In this document: positions 1,040 to 47,261 of the stretch, in pieces
Layout: the number at the start of each line of letters is the position of its first letter
Position numbering within the stretch: position 1 is the first letter of the stretch
Virus record (IMG/VR): IMGVR_UViG_3300036861_000805
Location: 1-64,000 of that record
Origin: a virus
Strand: one strand, 5' to 3'
DNA: 64,000 bases
Position numbers and translations under genes: made by a program
The notes under the pieces: generated by a model
Database searches by the model: none
Told to the model about the DNA's origin: nothing
The model's input: the letters and a program-made list of their open reading frames with translations, nothing else

Positions 1040-1317
1040 TCGGCGGAATCTGCGTAGTCGGCGGAGATGCCTGGCGCGGATGCAGGCTCGGCCTCCCGGA
1101 TCAGCGCCTGCTGGGAAACCATCACTGTGAAGCTGCGAGTACAAATATCCGCGCTCTCGAGAAGTACGCGCTCTTCGACGCGCACTGTGCGCGAAGACAT
1201 GAAGGTGCCTTCCGCCGGAAGCGTGTCGACGGCCGCGGAGAAGGCCTGGTCGCGGTCATCGAAGCGCTCGCCGGAGTCCTTTCCCGGCAAGATGACTTCC
1301 CAGTACGTGCGTCTCAT
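1036..1317 (-). CDS. 93-residue hypothetical protein
   Basis: Starts MRRTYWEVILPGKDSGERFD with the ATG overlapping the stop of the array-2 protein. The composition is balanced (mixed strand and helix, acidic) and unlike the low-complexity repeat frames on either side. This gene separates the two repeat arrays. No family recognised. Confidence 0.65.
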   Translation of the reverse strand: MRRTYWEVILPGKDSGERFDDRDQAFSAAVDTLPAEGTFMSSRTVRVEERVLLESADICTRSFTVMVSQQALIREAEPASAPGISADYADSAE

Positions 1318-2426
1318 CGCTTTTCCTTTCGCTTCGGGTCCGGGCGCACGGAGCGCTCAGGGGAGGGAATGTGGATGCGCATATGCTTGCCCTTCGGCAG
1401 TGGATGCACTTTCCCGCAGAGCTTGCATATCGTCCCCGCCGGCGCAGTGGCAAGGCAAGTGCTGCGGCGAGTCTTGGTTCGCTCCAGCGATACGGATGGC
1501 TCAGCAGGCTCGGCTCGCTCACCGAGTGCGGGTTTCTCTCCGTCTTCGGCTCGCTCGTGCGCGACGGGTGGCTCGGCGTAGGTGGCTCGCTCTTCCATGG
1601 CGGGTGGCTCTCGACCCGCGGCTTGCTCGCTTCGGACGGGTGCCTCCAGTCGCACGGCTCGCTCATTCGCGACGGATGGCTCGGCACCGGCGGCTCGCTC
1701 GCCAGGAGTGGGTGACTCTCCTTTATCGGCTCGCTCCCGTCGGCCAGGTGACTTCGCTGGTACGGCTCGCTCTCTCGTGTCGGATGCCTCACCATCGACG
1801 GCTCGCTCACTTGTCGCGGATGACTCAGCACAGACGGCTCGCTTCCGCTGGACGGGTGACTCCGCACTGACGGCTTGCTCCATAGATACGGGTGACTCCC
1901 GACGTCCGGCTCGCTCGCATGTCGCGGGTGACTCCTTTCCTTCGGCGCGCTCACAGCCTGCGGGTGACTCACTATCAGCGGCTCGCTCCTCACAGTCGGA
2001 TGACTCCTCTACTACGGCTCGCTCTGGACTCACGGATTGCTCTCGCATCCCGGCTCGCTCGGCGACCCCGGGTGATTTCTCAGCGGCGGCTTGCTCCTTA
2101 GTCTCGGACGACTCAACTTCGACGGCTCGCTCGTGCTGGAGGGATGGCTCCTGCTTCTCAACTCGCTCTTCGGCTTCGGATGCCTCGCGAAAAACGGCTC
2201 GCTCTGCTTCAACGGGTGGCTTCCTCGAGGTGGCTCGCTTGCAGGCGACGGATGACTCTCTCGGCTCGGCTCGCTCCCAATGGACGGATGACTCCGCGTC
2301 GTCGGCTTGGCTGGCCCTAGCCCCGCCCGGGGAGGCAGGGGCTAGGCCAGCTTTCTCGGGCGCGGGTGCGGCAGGTGGAGTGGGCTCCGCGCCCGATTCT
2401 TCGAGCAGATCGTCGAATTCGTTCAC
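1314..2426 (-). CDS. array-2 repeat protein with C-terminal zinc finger
   Basis: A 370-residue frame from GTG 2426, which overlaps the upstream TGA as GTGA, to a TGA that overlaps the next ATG. Residues 1-45 are acidic and Pro/Ala-rich. About residues 45-315 are 23 units of a 12-residue repeat ERAxxxExPxxx. The tail carries CKLCGKVHPLPKGKHMRIH, a C-x2-C-x10-H-x3-H arrangement like a C2H2 zinc finger, then a basic stretch. The repeat is open over its whole length, so the protein is probably made. The unit is conserved more as DNA than as protein: Arg is almost always CGA, a codon unexpected in GC-rich DNA. A DNA-binding or decoy role is inference. An alternative ATG lies at 2471. Confidence 0.6.
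   Translation of the reverse strand: MNEFDDLLEESGAEPTPPAAPAPEKAGLAPASPGGARASQADDAESSVHWERAEPRESSVACKRATSRKPPVEAERAVFREASEAEERVEKQEPSLQHERAVEVESSETKEQAAAEKSPGVAERAGMREQSVSPERAVVEESSDCEERAADSESPAGCERAEGKESPATCERAGRRESPVSMEQAVSAESPVQRKRAVCAESSATSERAVDGEASDTRERAVPAKSPGRRERADKGESPTPGERAAGAEPSVANERAVRLEAPVRSEQAAGREPPAMEERATYAEPPVAHERAEDGEKPALGERAEPAEPSVSLERTKTRRSTCLATAPAGTICKLCGKVHPLPKGKHMRIHIPSPERSVRPDPKRKEKR
1476..2312. repeat. 36-bp repeat array 2 (23-24 units)
   Basis: GGCTCGCTC, or a close variant such as GGCTTGCTC or GGCGCGCTC, begins at 1476 and then exactly every 36 bases to 2268, with a decayed copy at 2304. The half-step core, consensus GGRTGNCTC, lies 18 bases after each. There is not one insertion or deletion in over 800 bases. 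The 8-9 base spacers are all different, and their last base is usually C. It is the same unit as array 1 and as the repeat inside the initiator gene at 23792. Confidence 0.95.
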
Positions 2427-2662
2427 CTGATCTGCCGCAGCTGGAACTTTCCATGCTGGCGCCTGAGCCATCTGATGTGTTCCAGCAGCTCCTTGACTTC
2501 CCGGTTGCGCTGTTCGGCTTCGCCGAGCATGCAGTTGAGCTTGTGCCAGCGCCAGGGTTTGTGGCGCAGCTTTTTCATCACGGGAATGGCTTGCTCGTTC
2601 TCGTGTAGAAGGGCTTGGCAATGTCTGAGCAGTCTGAGGCGTGCCTCTACGAGCTCATCCAC
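2423..2662 (-). CDS. 79-residue coiled-coil protein
   Basis: Starts MDELVEARLRLLRHCQALLH from GTG 2662, overlapping the end of the RHH gene by eight bases. It is rich in Leu, Glu, Arg and Trp, with a heptad-like C-terminal half (NREVKELLEHIRWLRRQHGK) suggesting a coiled coil. It lies second in the leftward operon, between the RHH regulator and the repeat protein. It could be a partner of either; no family recognised. Confidence 0.65.
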   Translation of the reverse strand: MDELVEARLRLLRHCQALLHENEQAIPVMKKLRHKPWRWHKLNCMLGEAEQRNREVKELLEHIRWLRRQHGKFQLRQIR

Positions 2663-2840
2663 GATCGGTCTCGGCCTTGCGCACCCAGGCGTCGATCATG
2701 CTGTTCAGGATTTCCTGCATCGTGCGCCCGTCGTAGGCGAGCGCGACCTTGAGCCGGCGGTGCAGGGAGGCGGGCATGCGGAAGGTGACCTGCTGCAGGG
2801 GCTCGGTAGCGGGGGATTCAGATACCTCGGTATCGGGCAT
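2655..2840 (-). CDS. ribbon-helix-helix DNA-binding protein (ParG/CopG-like)
   Basis: 61 residues from ATG 2840. The flexible N-terminus is followed by an Arc/CopG-type fold: a beta strand (QQVTFRMPASLH) then two helices (RRLKVALAYDGRT, MQEILNSMIDAWV). Such proteins bind short operators as dimers that stack cooperatively. It is the first gene of the leftward operon, and an 8-bp-phased operator ladder overlaps its promoter and first codons, so autoregulation is likely. ParG- or omega-type proteins with this fold also serve in plasmid partition, but no ParA ATPase is visible here. The longer upstream start is rejected because it would overrun the promoter. Confidence 0.75.
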   Translation of the reverse strand: MPDTEVSESPATEPLQQVTFRMPASLHRRLKVALAYDGRTMQEILNSMIDAWVRKAETDRG

Positions 2841-2892
2841 TCGAGATACCGTAGCAGTTGGGTATTGAGATTTCAAGGTATCTGGGTATGTA
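2821..2892. promoter_or_regulatory. 8-bp-phased operator ladder
   Basis: Hexamers GGTATC or their inverse GATACC occur at 2821 (inv), 2829, 2845 (inv), 2861 (GGTATT), 2877 and 2885 (GGTATG). All are on one 8-base grid, with degenerate members at 2837 and 2869. This is the layout expected for cooperative RHH binding. The ladder covers the -35 and -10 of the RHH gene and its first codons. Confidence 0.75.
2848..2876 (-). promoter_or_regulatory. promoter of the leftward operon
   Basis: On the minus strand TTGAAA (2876-2871), a 17-base spacer and TACGGT (2853-2848). Transcription would start near 2841, directly at the ATG (2840), giving a nearly leaderless mRNA. The promoter lies inside the operator ladder. 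Confidence 0.5.
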
Positions 2893-3031: not shown

Positions 3032-3048
3032 GTTATCAGACTGATAAC
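3032..3048. promoter_or_regulatory. dispersed palindrome, site 1
   Basis: GTTATCAG-A-CTGATAAC, a perfect 17-base palindrome centred on 3040. It lies between the two divergent promoters, 42 bases upstream of the rightward -35 box. Confidence 0.7.
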
Positions 3049-3090: not shown

Positions 3091-3119
3091 TTGACAGATG
3101 ATAGGTGAGGCCTCATACT
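3091..3119 (+). promoter_or_regulatory. promoter of the first rightward operon
   Basis: TTGACA (3091-3096), a 17-base spacer, and CATACT (3114-3119): a perfect -35 and a 4/6 -10. The start would be near 3126, leaving a leader of about 150 bases before the ATG at 3277. Confidence 0.65.
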
Positions 3120-3276: not shown

Positions 3277-4071
3277 ATGAGCAAGACTGACGTCCTGACT
3301 GCCGAGCAGGAGACTGCCGAGCAGTCAGCACAGGCCGAGACCGAGCAGAACGAGGCACTCGTCCCGCTCGAACGGGCGATCACCTCCGACATGGAGCGGA
3401 TCGACCGTGCCGAGTCCATGGTCGGACGCCTCTTCACCCGCGTCGGCATTCGTGTAGACAAGGGTGCATTCCGCGTCTCTGACTACGGGCGCGATTGGCG
3501 AGTCTGGGCACGGCCGCTCGTGGGCCGTTCCGACTCGATCCTGTACAAGGTCCGGCAGGCGGGAGCGATCGCCCGAGTCCTCGGATTCGAGGAGACCGCG
3601 AAGCCTGAGGACCTGCCCGGCTACCTGACCCTCGTCCCCTTCTACGCGGTCATCAAGACCGCAAAGACGGACAAGGAGCGAGGGAAGGCGGAGGACAAGA
3701 TCCGCCGCGCGTGGGCGTCGCTCACGAGTGGGGGAACCTTCCCGACACAGGAGCAGGCGCAGGCGAAGGCAGACGCCATCGTCGGGCGGATCCGCCAGGC
3801 ACAGGAGAACGGTGCCGATACCGACCCCGACTCGGAGGAGACTCCGCAGTCTGGTGCGGAGGCTCAGGAGAAGGACTCCCCCGCGGAGATGGTCCGTTTG
3901 GATCCGGCCGCGGTCGAGGCCACTCGAAAGCATCTCGTCCCGTTCTTCAGGCAATGGCACAACGAGTACGGCGTGGAGGAGACCGCTGCCAAGGCGATCA
4001 TGTCTGCCACGCTGCGGCTCGTCGGGTCCGACGGACCCGGCCGGGACCTGATCGAAGCGGCGATCGGCTAA
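3277..4071 (+). CDS. 264-residue hypothetical early protein
   Basis: First gene of the rightward block, behind the strongest promoter seen. Residues 1-30 are Glu/Gln-rich and probably disordered. Residues 30-150 are a well-mixed domain (MVGRLFTRVGIRVDKGAFRV, then LYKVRQAGAIARVLG). About residues 170-205 form a charged linker, and a helical C-terminal domain follows. It has no membrane segment and no Cys pairs. By position it could be a regulator or DNA-maintenance protein, but I do not recognise the family. Confidence 0.8.
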   Translation: MSKTDVLTAEQETAEQSAQAETEQNEALVPLERAITSDMERIDRAESMVGRLFTRVGIRVDKGAFRVSDYGRDWRVWARPLVGRSDSILYKVRQAGAIARVLGFEETAKPEDLPGYLTLVPFYAVIKTAKTDKERGKAEDKIRRAWASLTSGGTFPTQEQAQAKADAIVGRIRQAQENGADTDPDSEETPQSGAEAQEKDSPAEMVRLDPAAVEATRKHLVPFFRQWHNEYGVEETAAKAIMSATLRLVGSDGPGRDLIEAAIG

Positions 4072-8588: not shown

Positions 8589-8952
8589 CAGCGCCCTCTA
8601 TATCCTCACTCCGCCCGTACCGTTCCGCGCGGGATTCGTGGGTACAGGCGACGCCAGTCCCTTCTATCACCACTGCGCGGACTGCACCCGCGCCACGTAT
8701 CCGGATATGCCCGACTCGGACGCGGAGCAGCCGATTACGGCTGTGCTCGCTGCGCCCGGGCTCGACACGCTCGTCTGGGATGCCATACGGCTCGTGCAAC
8801 TCGACGAGTCGGACTCGCTCTCGTACACGCCGGCGGTCTTCTGCGCCCAGCACGCGCAGGAGCGTTGGCCGCAGGAGTTCTGCCCGGAATGCGGGCAACC
8901 CGACAACTGCGGCGATTGCGACCACACACCGATTACGGAGGCTGTCGCATGA
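8581..8952 (+). CDS. 123-residue zinc-binding protein
   Basis: Starts MTDSALYILTPPVPFRAGFV. The cysteines fall in two groups: HHCADCTRATYP near residues 28-33 and FCPECGQPDNCGDCDH near the C-terminus. They look like two zinc sites. Function unknown; joined by ATGA to the next gene. Confidence 0.75.
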   Translation: MTDSALYILTPPVPFRAGFVGTGDASPFYHHCADCTRATYPDMPDSDAEQPITAVLAAPGLDTLVWDAIRLVQLDESDSLSYTPAVFCAQHAQERWPQEFCPECGQPDNCGDCDHTPITEAVA

Positions 8953-9293
8953 ACACTTACAGAGAGCAGCTCGCGCGACAGGAGGCTTTGCGAGCCTCCC
9001 TGCCCAAGCGCGAGTACATCACGAACCAGGAGTACGCGAAGCTCAAGTCCGCGCTCACGCGTGCGAAGAACTCGGGCGATCCGGCGCGCGTGCTCAAGGC
9101 AGTTGAGGCGGCGGTCGACGTCTTCAATCAGAAGATCTGGCCGGACGATTGGGCGATGTGGCGCATCGCGCTCGAGGATGCCTCGCAACAGGCGAAGTCA
9201 TCGGCGGCCCGTGCGTCCATCCGCGACGGTGAGTACGAGCGGCTGATGACGCTCTCCGACGAACTGTACGCGGCAAGCCTGGTCCTGTTCTGA
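8949..9293 (+). CDS. 114-residue helical protein
   Basis: Starts MNTYREQLARQEALRASLPK. Almost wholly helical with amphipathic stretches (ALTRAKNSGDPARVLKAVEA). TGATG junction to the next gene. No family recognised. Confidence 0.75.
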   Translation: MNTYREQLARQEALRASLPKREYITNQEYAKLKSALTRAKNSGDPARVLKAVEAAVDVFNQKIWPDDWAMWRIALEDASQQAKSSAARASIRDGEYERLMTLSDELYAASLVLF

Positions 9294-9528: not shown

Positions 9529-10083
9529 ATGAGTGCGTGGGTCGTATCGAAGACGCACATCGACCTGCTCGTACGAGCAGCGCTACACGCTCGCGAGGTC
9601 AGCGGCCACGGCTTTTCATGGTGGGCCGTCGAAGAGAACGGTGGCTACGCCGGCTGGCGAGAGCTCGACGAATTCGCCGAGGAACGGGCGCCTCGCTATG
9701 AAGGGCACGAGTTCGTGAGCCCCTCCGCGCTCGGGCAGATCCTCGTGAACGAGAACGTCATGAGCGTGCATCACCGCTACCCGGACGACAACCCCGATAT
9801 GGGGGAGTTGCCCGGTCCAGTCGACGCCTACTACATGGGTCCCTACGTGTACGAGAATCCGGGCTATACGCTCACACCCGGCGAAGTGTTCGCAGCGATC
9901 GACTGTCTCGACTACCAGAGCTGCGAGCACGATGAGTGGATGCAGTCGGAGGCCTATGCGTTCCTGCGCGCCCTGCGTGTGCGCTATTGCCAGAAGGTCG
10001 AAGGGTACGCCGAGGCTCCTCATGGCTGGGAGCAAGAGGACCTGGCCAAGCGACCGCGTGAGTTCTCGCGGAGGGTCCTCTGA
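9529..10083 (+). CDS. 184-residue conserved-looking phage protein
   Basis: Starts MSAWVVSKTHIDLLVRAALH. Features are an aromatic N-terminal half (FSWWAVEENGGYAGWREL), LGQILVNENVMSVHHRYPDD, and a C-terminal IDCLDYQSCEHDEWMQSEA. The KTHID...AIDCLDYQSCEH pattern resembles a hypothetical family found in many phages and bacteria. No catalytic assignment can be made. Confidence 0.8.
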   Translation: MSAWVVSKTHIDLLVRAALHAREVSGHGFSWWAVEENGGYAGWRELDEFAEERAPRYEGHEFVSPSALGQILVNENVMSVHHRYPDDNPDMGELPGPVDAYYMGPYVYENPGYTLTPGEVFAAIDCLDYQSCEHDEWMQSEAYAFLRALRVRYCQKVEGYAEAPHGWEQEDLAKRPREFSRRVL

Positions 10084-10310
10084 TGCGCATCGTCATCGCC
10101 ATTGATCTCGGGAACGAGGCTATGCAGACCATGCAGGACGTCGCCGACGCGCTTGCGAAGTGCCTGACGGCGAGCACGGACATGAACGAGCCGCTGCTCA
10201 TGAACGAGAGCGGCCGCGTTCGCGACCTGAACGGAAATACAGTGGGAGCCTGGGAAGTAGTCGATCTCGCCAACGGCAGCCCGTCATGGTTGACGAGTTT
10301 CTCAGACTGA
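10083..10310 (+). CDS. 75-residue hypothetical protein
   Basis: TGATG junction with the preceding gene. Reads MRIVIAIDLGNEAMQTMQDV. A ferredoxin-like alpha/beta start is followed by a loop-rich C-terminal part ending SWLTSFSD. Function unknown. Confidence 0.7.
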   Translation: MRIVIAIDLGNEAMQTMQDVADALAKCLTASTDMNEPLLMNESGRVRDLNGNTVGAWEVVDLANGSPSWLTSFSD

Positions 10311-23614: not shown

Positions 23615-24472
23615 ATGCGTGACCGGATGGTGTATCGGGATCGCATCTGCTTCGCATCGAAAGCGACACTCGCGCAAGCCGCTGGCTGCTCGACGCGCTC
23701 GGTGCAACGGGCTTGGCGCGAACTCGAGCTCTCTGGCCGCTGGGAATGTGTCAAATCCCTACCTTCTGGAAAAGCCCCCAAGACCAGGGTGTGGAGAGCC
23801 GTGTCCGAGGAGACCACCGGAATCGTCGAGCGGGCCGTGGTAACCGAGACTACCGGAGCTGTCGAGCGAGCCGCGAGATCCGAGAACACCGGAGCGTACG
23901 AGCGTTATTTTGTCTCCCGACGTACTTCGTACAGAAAACCTCAAACCCCTCGGCCTTCTGATCTCAGGATCAGCGCTAGCGAAGGACCACGGCCGAGGCG
24001 CGCGAGCGCGCCGACCATCCGCTGCGGTAGGAGGAGAAGACTCGTGGAACGACACCCAGAAAAACTCTCCGAAGGGGTGGTGCGGCGGAATGGCGAGGTA
24101 ACTCCCTGGAATGCTGGAGACGCCGTAGCTGCCACGGTGGACTTCTGCCGCACACGCGGCATACCCCTTGCTCCCTCGATCCGAGCGCGACTGGGGAAGG
24201 CAGCGAAGGCGCTGCTCGAATCAGACTTCCCTCCGAACGTCGTCGTCGCTTCCTGTGTCGTTGCGATCAGGACTGGCTGGTTCGGATCTGTGGAGACGAT
24301 CGCGCAGGAAATGGCTGTAGCTCAGGCGGGGGAGCGGATGACGCGGCAGGCCTATGTTCAGGCGATGCACGAGACATCGAGGGAGATGGAACATTCAGAG
24401 AGCGAAGTGTGGAAAACGCTACGTGAGGAAACGCAAAGACGAGCAGAGAAATCGAAAGGAGCCGAAGCATGA
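23615..24472 (+). CDS. winged-helix replication initiator / replisome organiser
   Basis: 285 residues. Residues 8-55 are a winged helix like lambda-O/phage replication proteins: ICFASKATLAQAAGCSTRSV then QRAWRELELSGRWE. Residues 60-100 are a linker of 12-residue units (ERAVVTETTGAV, ERAARSENTGAY) encoded by the same 36-bp repeat as the two large arrays. A basic region follows, then a helical C-terminal domain (AAKALLESDFPPNVVVASCV). Domain-like sequence continues upstream to about 23549 (ERKTGKTVARPAVVTQLVEA) with no standard start, so the true start may be a GTA at 23573. In lambda the origin lies inside gene O, a close parallel. Confidence 0.7.
   Translation: MRDRMVYRDRICFASKATLAQAAGCSTRSVQRAWRELELSGRWECVKSLPSGKAPKTRVWRAVSEETTGIVERAVVTETTGAVERAARSENTGAYERYFVSRRTSYRKPQTPRPSDLRISASEGPRPRRASAPTIRCGRRRRLVERHPEKLSEGVVRRNGEVTPWNAGDAVAATVDFCRTRGIPLAPSIRARLGKAAKALLESDFPPNVVVASCVVAIRTGWFGSVETIAQEMAVAQAGERMTRQAYVQAMHETSREMEHSESEVWKTLREETQRRAEKSKGAEA
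23792..23908 (+). repeat. intragenic 36-bp repeats (iteron-like)
   Basis: Cores begin at 23792 (degenerate), 23828 (GAGCGGGCC), 23864 (GAGCGAGCC) and 23900 (GAGCG...), exactly 36 apart. Half-step cores GAGACTACC (23846) and GAGAACACC (23882) lie 18 bases after. Core, spacing and reading frame are the same as in the arrays at 178 and 1476. Confidence 0.85.
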
Positions 24473-40727: not shown

Positions 40728-41843
40728 TTACTCGAAGAATCCCGTCGCCCAGAGTGTGTCAAGTTGATCGAACCAACGCATGAACATCGAGCCGACAGCC
40801 TCAAGCGAGAACCGCGTAATCGCATAACTTCGGATCGCCTGTCGGTCGAGACTGACCACCTCCTCGACTGCAGCTGCGCCCTGCTTGGGGGTGCGAAAGA
40901 GTCTCCCGCTGGCGGGACTAAGAAGTTCGGGGAAGGCCCCCCAGTCCGAAGCTACGACCGGCGCACCGGCAAGCATGGCCTCGACGGCGACACCACCGAA
41001 GGGCTCGATGTACTTGGTGGGCACGAGTACGGCTGCGGCTTTGGCCATCAATTCCGCACGTTCGGCGAAGTGCACTTCTCCCACGTATTCGAGATCGCCT
41101 GTGATCTCGTCCCCTTCGTAGTTCACGACCCTGCCCTTGCTCCACTCTCGAGCGCCAGGGCCCGCGATGATGAGCTTGCGTCCTGCACGTTCGGCGATCA
41201 TGGCCGCGATGTCGACACCCTTACGCTGGATCACGCGGCCCATGTAGAGGAGATAATCGCCGGGTTCGGCGAGGTAGAACTGCGCCGGCTCGAAGAAGTT
41301 CGGGATCACCTGGTGGTAAGCGGGGCCATCGGTGATTCGGCGCAACCCGTACACGTGGTGCATCCAGGCATAGCTCTCGAAAGCGGAGAAGGGACTCCAG
41401 AATCCCTCGTAGCCGATTCCGTATTCGACGCAGAGCGGGCCGCGCCGACAGTCATCTCCTGAGATCGCCTGCCCGATCGGCTGCTGCGTTCCGGTGATGA
41501 GGCATAGATAGTCGCGCTCGCGCATGCGTTCTCGGATCGCATCGATGGCCTTGACTGCGGGCTCTTGCCAGTACGGTAGGGCGGCGTCCCACTCGAAGGG
41601 TGTGCCCGCAGTGTTGAAGCCTTCCCCGAAACCCCAGCGCTCGCGGTCGGCTTGGGTCGTGATGACGACGTGCTCGGTCGCGCGGAAGTAGTCATCCGTG
41701 ATGTCCGGTCCGTACGAGAAGACTTCGCAACCCTGATCGAGCATCATCGGACAGAAGCGATGGTGCTTCATGGTGTAGGCACAAGTCGAATGTTGCTCGG
41801 TCAGCGTTGTGTGCGGCAACGAGATGACATGCAGGCGTCTCAT
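40728..41843 (-). CDS. GT4-type glycosyltransferase
   Basis: 371 residues from ATG 41843. YLLYMGRVIQRKGVDIAAMI and EPFGGVAVEAMLAGAPVVAS (an E-x7-E motif) define the GT-B fold donor-site half of GT4 glycosyltransferases. The N-terminal half (YTMKHHRFCPMMLDQGCEVF; GPDITDDYFRATEHVVITTQ) is the acceptor domain. Phage glycosyltransferases next to tail genes can glycosylate virion proteins; the nearby collagen-like fibres are candidate acceptors. TCCCGC-TG-GCGGGA occurs inside the gene. Confidence 0.8.
   Translation of the reverse strand: MRRLHVISLPHTTLTEQHSTCAYTMKHHRFCPMMLDQGCEVFSYGPDITDDYFRATEHVVITTQADRERWGFGEGFNTAGTPFEWDAALPYWQEPAVKAIDAIRERMRERDYLCLITGTQQPIGQAISGDDCRRGPLCVEYGIGYEGFWSPFSAFESYAWMHHVYGLRRITDGPAYHQVIPNFFEPAQFYLAEPGDYLLYMGRVIQRKGVDIAAMIAERAGRKLIIAGPGAREWSKGRVVNYEGDEITGDLEYVGEVHFAERAELMAKAAAVLVPTKYIEPFGGVAVEAMLAGAPVVASDWGAFPELLSPASGRLFRTPKQGAAAVEEVVSLDRQAIRSYAITRFSLEAVGSMFMRWFDQLDTLWATGFFE
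40904..40917. repeat. TCCCGC-TG-GCGGGA palindrome, copy 5
   Basis: Perfect 14-base copy inside the glycosyltransferase gene. Confidence 0.6.
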
Positions 41844-41856
41844 GCCCGCCAGCAGT

Positions 41857-42342
41857 TCAGCTGGCCCGGATGAAGCCCGCGGACAGATCGACGATGATGT
41901 CGTCCCCGTTCGGAACGGCGTAAGAGCCATTCACGATCAGATCATGGGCGCTGACAGGGACGAGGTTCGCATCCGTACCCGCCGTCGTGTCGTTGTCGTA
42001 GGCGATGAGCATCTGCGCCCAGATGTCACCCGCGGAGATGATCGCGAAGGTCTGCACGGGGATCGCGATGGTGATCGAGTTCGTGGTGTCGTCGACCGTG
42101 TAGGCCGCGAGATCGACATCCGTCAACGTCTTGCGGCCGTACCCCACATTCGTGACCTCGTTCGTTGTGCCAGCCAGAACATCGGCGACGGTGTCCTTCG
42201 TCTTCAGGACTGAGGGCTGCTCGAGTCCAGACTCCGCGAGCACCAGCAGGATGAAGGCGCTGTTCGTGGGATCGTTGTTGTTGACGCGGTTGTAGAGCTC
42301 GACCTCGCGTCCCAGAGAGACATTCGCCTGCCACTGGGGCAT
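41857..42342 (-). CDS. 161-residue virion protein candidate
   Basis: Starts MPQWQANVSLGREVELYNRV; beta-rich, Asn/Thr/Val-rich (NSAFILLVLAESGLEQPSVL; TNSITIAIPVQTFAIISAGD). Typical of phage minor structural proteins. It starts right after the 50-residue gene upstream with a TAATG-type junction. Confidence 0.65.
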   Translation of the reverse strand: MPQWQANVSLGREVELYNRVNNNDPTNSAFILLVLAESGLEQPSVLKTKDTVADVLAGTTNEVTNVGYGRKTLTDVDLAAYTVDDTTNSITIAIPVQTFAIISAGDIWAQMLIAYDNDTTAGTDANLVPVSAHDLIVNGSYAVPNGDDIIVDLSAGFIRAS

Positions 42343-45641: not shown

Positions 45642-47261
45642 TCAGCTCCTTTGCACCGTAAGCGAAACCGTAACGCGGGTAATGGTCGTCACCGAATCGA
45701 CATTGAAGCCGAGAATGTCGCCGGCGGTGATGCTCGTAGTCCAGCCGGAGAGAGTCGTGTCCTGTGATTTCGTCGCCGAGGAGATGGTGGGTGGCGTCGC
45801 TGAGGTAATCGAGTCCGGGTCCGTTGGAGGATAGTTAGCGTAAGTGTCTTTCCAGATATCGATGACGATGCTCCCACTCTGGTCAGCGAACAGCCGCGCA
45901 GCGGTAATCGTGCAGTTGAAGGGCACTTCCAGATATCCCTTCTGGCCCGTCGTAATCACTACCCCGCCGCCGTCGATGACGAACTCGATGGCCAGAACCG
46001 TTCCGCCAGGGCCTGTCGCGCCAGTAGCTCCGTTCGCTCCAGTCGCTCCCTGTGCCCCGGTCGCTCCAGCGCTTCCGGCCGTACCGGTGGCGCCGGTAGC
46101 TCCCGGCACTCCGGGAGCGAAGGCGACGACGGTGTCGCCGAGCGCAGTCGAGAGCGCGATACCCGAATCGTCGATGTAGGTGACGTGGATGCGGCGGTAG
46201 CCGGAGACAGTGTCGATGGCGTCGATGCGGTAGACGACCCAGCGCGTCGGGTCCGTCTCGCTGAGGATCTTCAGATAGCCCGGGACGGTCGCAAAGAGGT
46301 CGAGCCACGCGGTAACGTCGCTGCCCCACGTGTCGAGCAGGTCTATATACAGCTCCGTGACTGCGGAATAGGTCGCGCTGTTGAAGCGCAGGTTCCCGGA
46401 ACCGGGATCCGCGTCAGTCGTGGAGGAGTCGTCGAAGTTGAACTCGAAGGCGTCTGAACCAAGCGCGCCCTGCGCGCCGGTCGCTCCGGTGGCCCCGCCT
46501 GGCGAGCCAGTCGCCCCTGTCGCGCCAGAATCGCCGTCCGAGCCGTCAATGCCCGCCAAGCCAGTCGCTCCAGTTGCCCCGTCAGGAGGGCCTGCTGGCC
46601 CCGTAGCACCCGTGGCACCCGCTCCGGTCGCTCCGGTTGCGCCTGTGGCTCCCGTGGCTCCTGCGACGCCCGTAGGCCCCGTAGCACCGCCTGGCGAGCC
46701 CGCCGCTCCGGTAGCACCTGTCGCTCCGATGCCGGTCGCGCCAGTGAAACCGCGCACGCCAGTTGCGCCGGTAGCGCCACTTGCACCCGTGTAGCCGCGA
46801 GGCCCGGCGCTTCCCGCCGGGCCTGCCGGGCCCGTTGCACCCGCACTGCCCGAGGCGGGCCAGTAGATGCGCACCTCCCCGTCGTCGTAGTCGATCGTGA
46901 CCCGGCCAACCTGGAACTCAGACGTTGCCGGATCCCAGACGTCAACGAGGAAGGAGACGTTGTGTGGAGGTCGGAAGGTGGGTTCGACTCCCACGACGTC
47001 GGGCAGGATGCAAGCAACTGTTCCCGAGACTCCGGGGATAAGTGTGCCCTTGAACTCGAGCGAGTTGTCCGCATGCAGCCGGTACTGAAAATCTCCGAGG
47101 GAGAGCTCGGGATGCGTGTCGGAGGGCTGCGTCCACGTTCCGAGCAGCGTGGGCGTATTCCAGCGACCGGCGAGCGGCCGGCGCTCCTGTCTCGTTACTC
47201 GCTGATCGACGTATCGCTGACGGCGTTCCGGGTCGTTCTCGTCGTAGACCGGGCGACTCAT
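45642..47261 (-). CDS. collagen-like tail fibre
   Basis: 539 residues. An N-terminal domain (about 1-145) is followed by about 110 residues of G-x-T/G-A-T triplets ([16 protein letters not shown], repeated), a non-collagenous insert (about 255-370, [20 protein letters not shown]), a second short collagen stretch, then a beta-rich C-terminal domain ([20 protein letters not shown]). Trimeric triple-helix fibre with globular tips; the tips are likely receptor-binding. Possible target of the neighbouring glycosyltransferase. Confidence 0.8.

Follow-up and report, generated by a model that had tools for sequence, protein, structure and literature searches.

An 8-bp-phased ladder of GATACC/GGTATC octads at a phage ribbon-helix-helix gene, a probable autoregulatory operator

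The stretch of DNA analysed here (the window) comprises bases 1–64,000 of an 86,757-bp virus record. Both ends of the record carry an exact 127-bp direct repeat, which makes a complete genome, assembled as a circle, the most likely interpretation. Phage genes for terminase, portal, capsid and tail proteins, a sliding clamp and DNA methylases are present, and the structural proteins have only distant relatives among known phages (terminase <37% identity). A terminase search returned relatives at 29–36% identity only, searches with the major capsid protein and with 25 kb of the phage DNA against phages found no close relatives, and Rfam and tRNA scans were empty. The phage also encodes three collagen-repeat tail fibre proteins (45642–47261, minus strand, and neighbours) as well as glycosyltransferase, methyltransferase and PIG-L deacetylase genes (40728–41930, minus strand, and in L002) that are possibly involved in virion or host glycosylation.

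The locus considered here consists of a leftward group of small genes and a row of short sites over its predicted promoter, with the following features.

2805–2892 (core 2821–2892), both orientations: octad ladder of 11 consecutive 8-bp steps, from a phased-site scan and shuffles
2871–2876, minus strand: candidate −35 box TTGAAA, beneath octads 2869/2877
2848–2853, minus strand: candidate −10 box TACGGT, after a 17-bp spacer and 7 nt from the ATG at 2840, beneath octads 2845/2853
2805–2852: imperfect 24-bp duplication, partly coding (VSRMPDTE / VSESPATE), each unit spanning three octads; matches a TRF row at 2802–2850
2821–2834: strongest pair of sites, the inverted repeat GATACC-TC-GGTATC, within the first codons of the ribbon-helix-helix (RHH) gene
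2655–2840, minus strand: 61-aa RHH protein, likely a ladder-binding repressor, from Pfam RHH_10, PDB matches and GC3
2423–2656, minus strand: small coiled-coil-like protein, next gene in the leftward operon, its ATG overlapping the RHH stop codon (ATGA)
1314–2471, minus strand: acidic protein built of 12-residue repeats (ERAVxxESP-type), with Cys and His residues clustered at its C terminus; start codon inferred

On the plus strand from 2805 the successive octads of the ladder are GGTAGCGG GGGATTCA GATACCTC GGTATCGG GCATTCGA GATACCGT AGCAGTTG GGTATTGA GATTTCAA GGTATCTG GGTATGTA. Four ladder hexamers are exact (GATACC at 2821 and 2845, GGTATC at 2829 and 2877) and three have one mismatch (GGTAGC at 2805, GGTATT at 2861 and GGTATG at 2885), and all seven hexamers with ≤1 mismatch found between 2700 and 3000 share a single 8-bp phase. 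An earlier note on this DNA had listed six hexamers on one 8-base grid; the grid and the six sites stand, while exactness holds for four of them, 2861 and 2885 being one-mismatch sites, and the seventh in-register site at 2805 had been overlooked. The octads at 2837 and 2853 match the hexamer poorly (3–4 mismatches).

The 8-bp ladder is genuine, its phasing is far beyond chance and it is unique in the record. It reaches a phased score of 11 across 12 octads, compared with a maximum of 4 among 5,000 dinucleotide shuffles of the local 200-bp region, and shuffling the entire 86,757-bp record 60 times likewise gave scores ≤4. The runner-up site in the whole record scores 3, leaving a single ladder. 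A motif-free seed-and-period scan of the region returned GGTATC at period 8 as its top result, with 7 matches at that period versus ≤5 at others. Taken singly, GGTATC hexamers show no enrichment across the window (16 observed versus 14.2 expected); what is special is the phasing alone. The 24-bp duplication (lag-24 identity of 0.55) accounts for part of the pattern at 2805–2852, but not for the upstream steps at 2861, 2877 and 2885.

The arrangement TTGAAA-17-TACGGT-7-ATG occurs once in the 86.7-kb record, inside the ladder, and the octad at 2837 falls on the ATG of the RHH gene. The sites thus overlap the predicted promoter of the RHH gene, as in RHH autoregulatory operators. The −10 box is weak relative to the E. 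coli consensus, and an automatic promoter scan missed the site. There is no clear ribosome-binding site and the predicted promoter ends 7 nt before the ATG, which together suggest that the RHH mRNA is leaderless. A longer 114-aa frame for the RHH gene was considered and dropped, since GC3 is 0.84 within the gene and falls to 0.43 just upstream of the ATG at 2840; by the same token, the upstream half of the ladder is probably noncoding. The RHH gene is followed on the minus strand by the coiled-coil-like gene and then the 12-residue repeat protein genes, and the ATGA overlap together with these downstream same-strand genes makes repression of an operon likely. In two of the leftward genes imperfect 36-bp repeats encode the 12-residue units (ERAVxxESPxxx; 181–840 and 1480–2300, minus strand), and such repeats recur at 23810–23904 on the plus strand, in the gene of an HTH_36 protein.

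Divergent from the ladder lies a strong rightward promoter-like site, TTGACA-17-CATACT (3091–3119, plus strand), which precedes a 264-aa gene (3277–4071) for which no close relatives were found. Between it and the ladder, at 3032–3048, is GTTATCAGACTGATAAC, a variant of the 15-bp palindrome TTCTCAG-N-CTGAGAA. This palindrome is present in 17 copies with ≤3 mismatches in the window and L002 (3033, 4409, 4790, 5393, 5774, 6278, 6394, 7634, 8141, 10299, 12494, 15004, 69950 and others), mostly just upstream of the ribosome-binding sites of small rightward genes, and resembles the start-associated or stoperator-type repeats of actinobacteriophages.

The 61-aa protein belongs to Pfam family PF23807, RHH_10 (E 7.7e-8; 32.9 bits against a cut-off of 27), in agreement with the earlier note, which had correctly called the gene and its leftward direction. 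Its analogy with omega and ParG was also apt: the sole matches in a PDB sequence search were ParG (1p94) and omega (2bnw/1irq), with E values of 0.0075–0.014. With 17.6 bits against a cut-off of 21.4, the protein falls outside the ParG family PF09274, and a PHROG family of Arc-like repressors matches it with an E value of 5e-4. A single-sequence AlphaFold2 model of the monomer (pLDDT 76) has helices at residues 24–37 and 41–60, the two helices expected of the fold, with the ribbon strand not resolved. Its list of structure matches consists of RHH folds throughout (Arc, CopG, PutA, MatP and others), the best having a probability of 0.99 and an E value of 0.17 and none an E value <0.1.

No close relatives of the RHH protein were found in IMG/VR or among phage records (best E ≥2 in the latter), and neither source yielded phage relatives carrying the gene. 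The nearest sequence relatives by tblastn are encoded on Deinococcus plasmids (43% and 41% identity), and a seed-and-period scan found no ladder upstream of these two genes. They lie (L004 2965–3171 and L005 2965–3171) directly upstream of genes leading to a McrB-family gene and are perhaps regulators of a restriction system. Several other plasmid matches are ParG-like genes adjoining ParA. An alignment of six RHH sequences was too heterogeneous to serve as a query.

Ladders of the same hexamer were sought in other genomes. An IMG/VR scan with an 18-base pattern taken from the ladder returned four contigs, three of which (L010, L011 and L013) look like chance or unrelated repeats. The fourth, the unrelated contig L012, has three GATACC/GGTATC arrays with 8-bp spacing and 6–7 steps each (∼8729–8790, 8952–9013 and 10074–10127), and the motif-free scan recovered GGTATC at period 8 in all three. 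These arrays flank two genes, one for ParA (PF13614, E 3.3e-12) and one that is RHH-like, the latter assigned by gene position and sequence pattern with a Pfam E value of 0.054, below the cut-off. A contiguous GRTAYC octad pattern run on 84,980 genomes gave 110 stretches, most of them uniform 8-mer tandem repeats that are uninformative, and most perfect octad runs in these public genomes have no recognisable ParA or RHH gene nearby. One stretch, L106 from Dysgonomonas, comprises 41 GGTATYGA-type octads that stop ∼25 bp short of a ParA gene; the small protein encoded after ParA is RHH-like as judged by eye. Neither the L012 nor the L106 protein has a clear sequence match to that of the window. 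A small RHH profile detected no RHH gene near the 110 stretches, a weak negative because the RHH-like gene of L106 escaped this profile as well. ParA was further seen ∼1.8 kb from the stretch in L027, with a marginal ParA near that in L102.

Other hexamers are arranged in the same way. In plasmid ParA loci related to L012 (L014 and L017) the 8-bp ladders are built from GACGCC/GACGTC, and in a Leclercia ParG locus the ladder is built from ATGAGT/ACTCAT; another ParA locus, L015, has no clear ladder in the motif-free scan. By sequence comparison, 8-bp ladders of various hexamers thus recur at predicted RHH partition loci, with the GATACC/GGTATC type at two or more of them (L012 and L106). RHH homology as judged from sequence does not by itself predict a ladder, since ladders are absent at the Deinococcus relatives and none is clear at L015. 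Octad arrays were also encountered in two further settings. A short GATATC array, GATATCTT GATATCAT GATATCAA GATATCAA, recurs at five sites spread over four contigs of a single Clostridiaceae genome (L022, L038, L040, L060 and L065) and is perhaps a dispersed operator or repeat element. In the Actinobacteria genome FK_Sedi_B_Bin.58, octad ladders that mix GGTACC/GATACC/GGTATC are numerous and lie on different contigs (L050, L066, L079, L092, L095, L113 and L118).

We propose that the ladder is very probably the operator of the RHH gene, at which cooperative binding of RHH dimers would repress their own operon. Protein binding, cooperativity and repression are each inferred by analogy with ParG and omega. 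A dimer of the 61-residue protein would insert its two-stranded beta-ribbon into the major groove of one octad, and dimers packed side by side along the 8-bp grid would occupy the ladder cooperatively between about 2805 and 2892, anchored at the exact GATACC/GGTATC steps and held on the degenerate ones through contacts with neighbours. The resulting filament would extend over both promoter boxes (−35 and −10) and the start codon, thereby blocking RNA polymerase and keeping the leftward operon (RHH, coiled-coil and repeat proteins) at a self-limiting level. The autoregulatory operator suggested earlier is well supported, if indirectly, by the RHH family match, the position of the ladder over the promoter and the octads beside ParA elsewhere. 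The same octads beside ParA in L012 and L106 also indicate that the architecture is of a known RHH operator type.

The ladder could instead be a by-product of short tandem duplication in 24-bp, partly coding units that binds nothing in particular. The imperfect duplication at 2802–2850 is in frame with the RHH N-terminus, most perfect octad runs in public genomes are plain 8-mer tandem repeats, and 36-bp coding repeats abound in this phage. However, the hexamers occur in both orientations with differing 2-bp spacers, and the phasing runs on through 2861–2892, upstream of the gene and outside the duplicated pair, and coding periodicity stops at the start codon; we regard this origin as unlikely. 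That the octads serve a different phage or host regulator, with the adjacent RHH protein acting elsewhere, is highly improbable. The genome does offer an HTH_36 protein (23615–24472) and a Sigma70_r4 match as candidates, and the Deinococcus RHH relatives have no ladders, but RHH dimers are suited to tandem 8-bp sites, the record's one octad cluster sits at the RHH promoter and the matching ladders of L012 adjoin an RHH-like gene.

The earlier note had also suggested a possible centromere, and this part is not supported. In such a scheme the ladder would double as a centromere and a ParG/omega-type protein would segregate a plasmid prophage, with a motor that is supplied by the host or is unrecognised. 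The idea draws on the same octads lying beside ParA in L012 and L106, on ParG and omega as the only PDB sequence matches and on the ParG-like plasmid genes next to ParA. Yet in the apparently complete 86,757-bp record neither ParA (PF13614 and PF01656) nor FtsZ/tubulin families, nor a tyrosine integrase or serine recombinase, were found, and there is only one ladder; the control of a ParM search of the record gave no signal. The short phased repeats at a promoter that are typical of type Ib (ParG/omega-type) partition are present here, and the ParA-type ATPase encoded alongside them is not, making a centromere very unlikely. We give least credence of all to a variant in which the phage retains the RHH protein and ladder, the centromere-type part of such a system, but no ParA, its filament acting with the coiled-coil and 12-residue-repeat proteins to anchor, segregate or package DNA. 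GATACC/GGTATC octad ladders are found both with ParA (L012 and L106) and without it, and a ladder alone should therefore not be read as a centromere.

As a probable autorepressor operator, the ladder can be compared with those of several characterized RHH proteins. MetJ has the RHH fold and binds tandem 8-bp operator steps (met boxes), a tandem 8-bp palindrome being the subject of a 1989 paper cited in PMC3274233, but differs from the window protein in its box and its SAM corepressor domain, and was not matched in any search. Arc-like repressors are likewise small phage RHH autorepressors, although Arc places two dimers on a single 21-bp operator and not on an extended ladder. ParG of plasmid TP228, which coats tetramer boxes with AT-rich spacers between them and represses its own operator (PMC7308502), is alike in being a small RHH protein whose row of short boxes (at its operator and parH) has spacers that vary, and its repression of its own operon matches that proposed for the window protein; the 8-bp step is shared by the Leclercia ParG locus, and ParG is the top PDB sequence match. 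Its boxes are of the ACTC type rather than GGTATC/GATACC, its partner gene ParF/ParA is missing from the phage, and the window protein has a short acidic N-terminus and a ParG Pfam score below the cut-off. The omega/ParB protein of pSM19035, whose dimers bind 7-bp repeats overlapping promoters (PMC9499535), shares the RHH fold and contiguous direct and inverted short repeats, with one dimer per repeat as proposed here, but recognizes WATCACW heptads in six arrays and is accompanied by a delta/ParA gene, unlike the single array of other sequence and 8-bp step in this phage. The L012 and L106 loci have the same GATACC/GGTATY hexamer family on an exact 8-bp grid adjoining a DNA-binding gene and differ in having ParA and either three arrays (L012) or 41 steps (L106). 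The ladder thus adds a new case to a design already familiar from plasmid partition, here in a phage with no partition motor that could be recognised. For this uncharacterised RHH_10 regulator of a phage, it predicts at the sequence level the hexamer, the 8-bp step and where the promoter lies.
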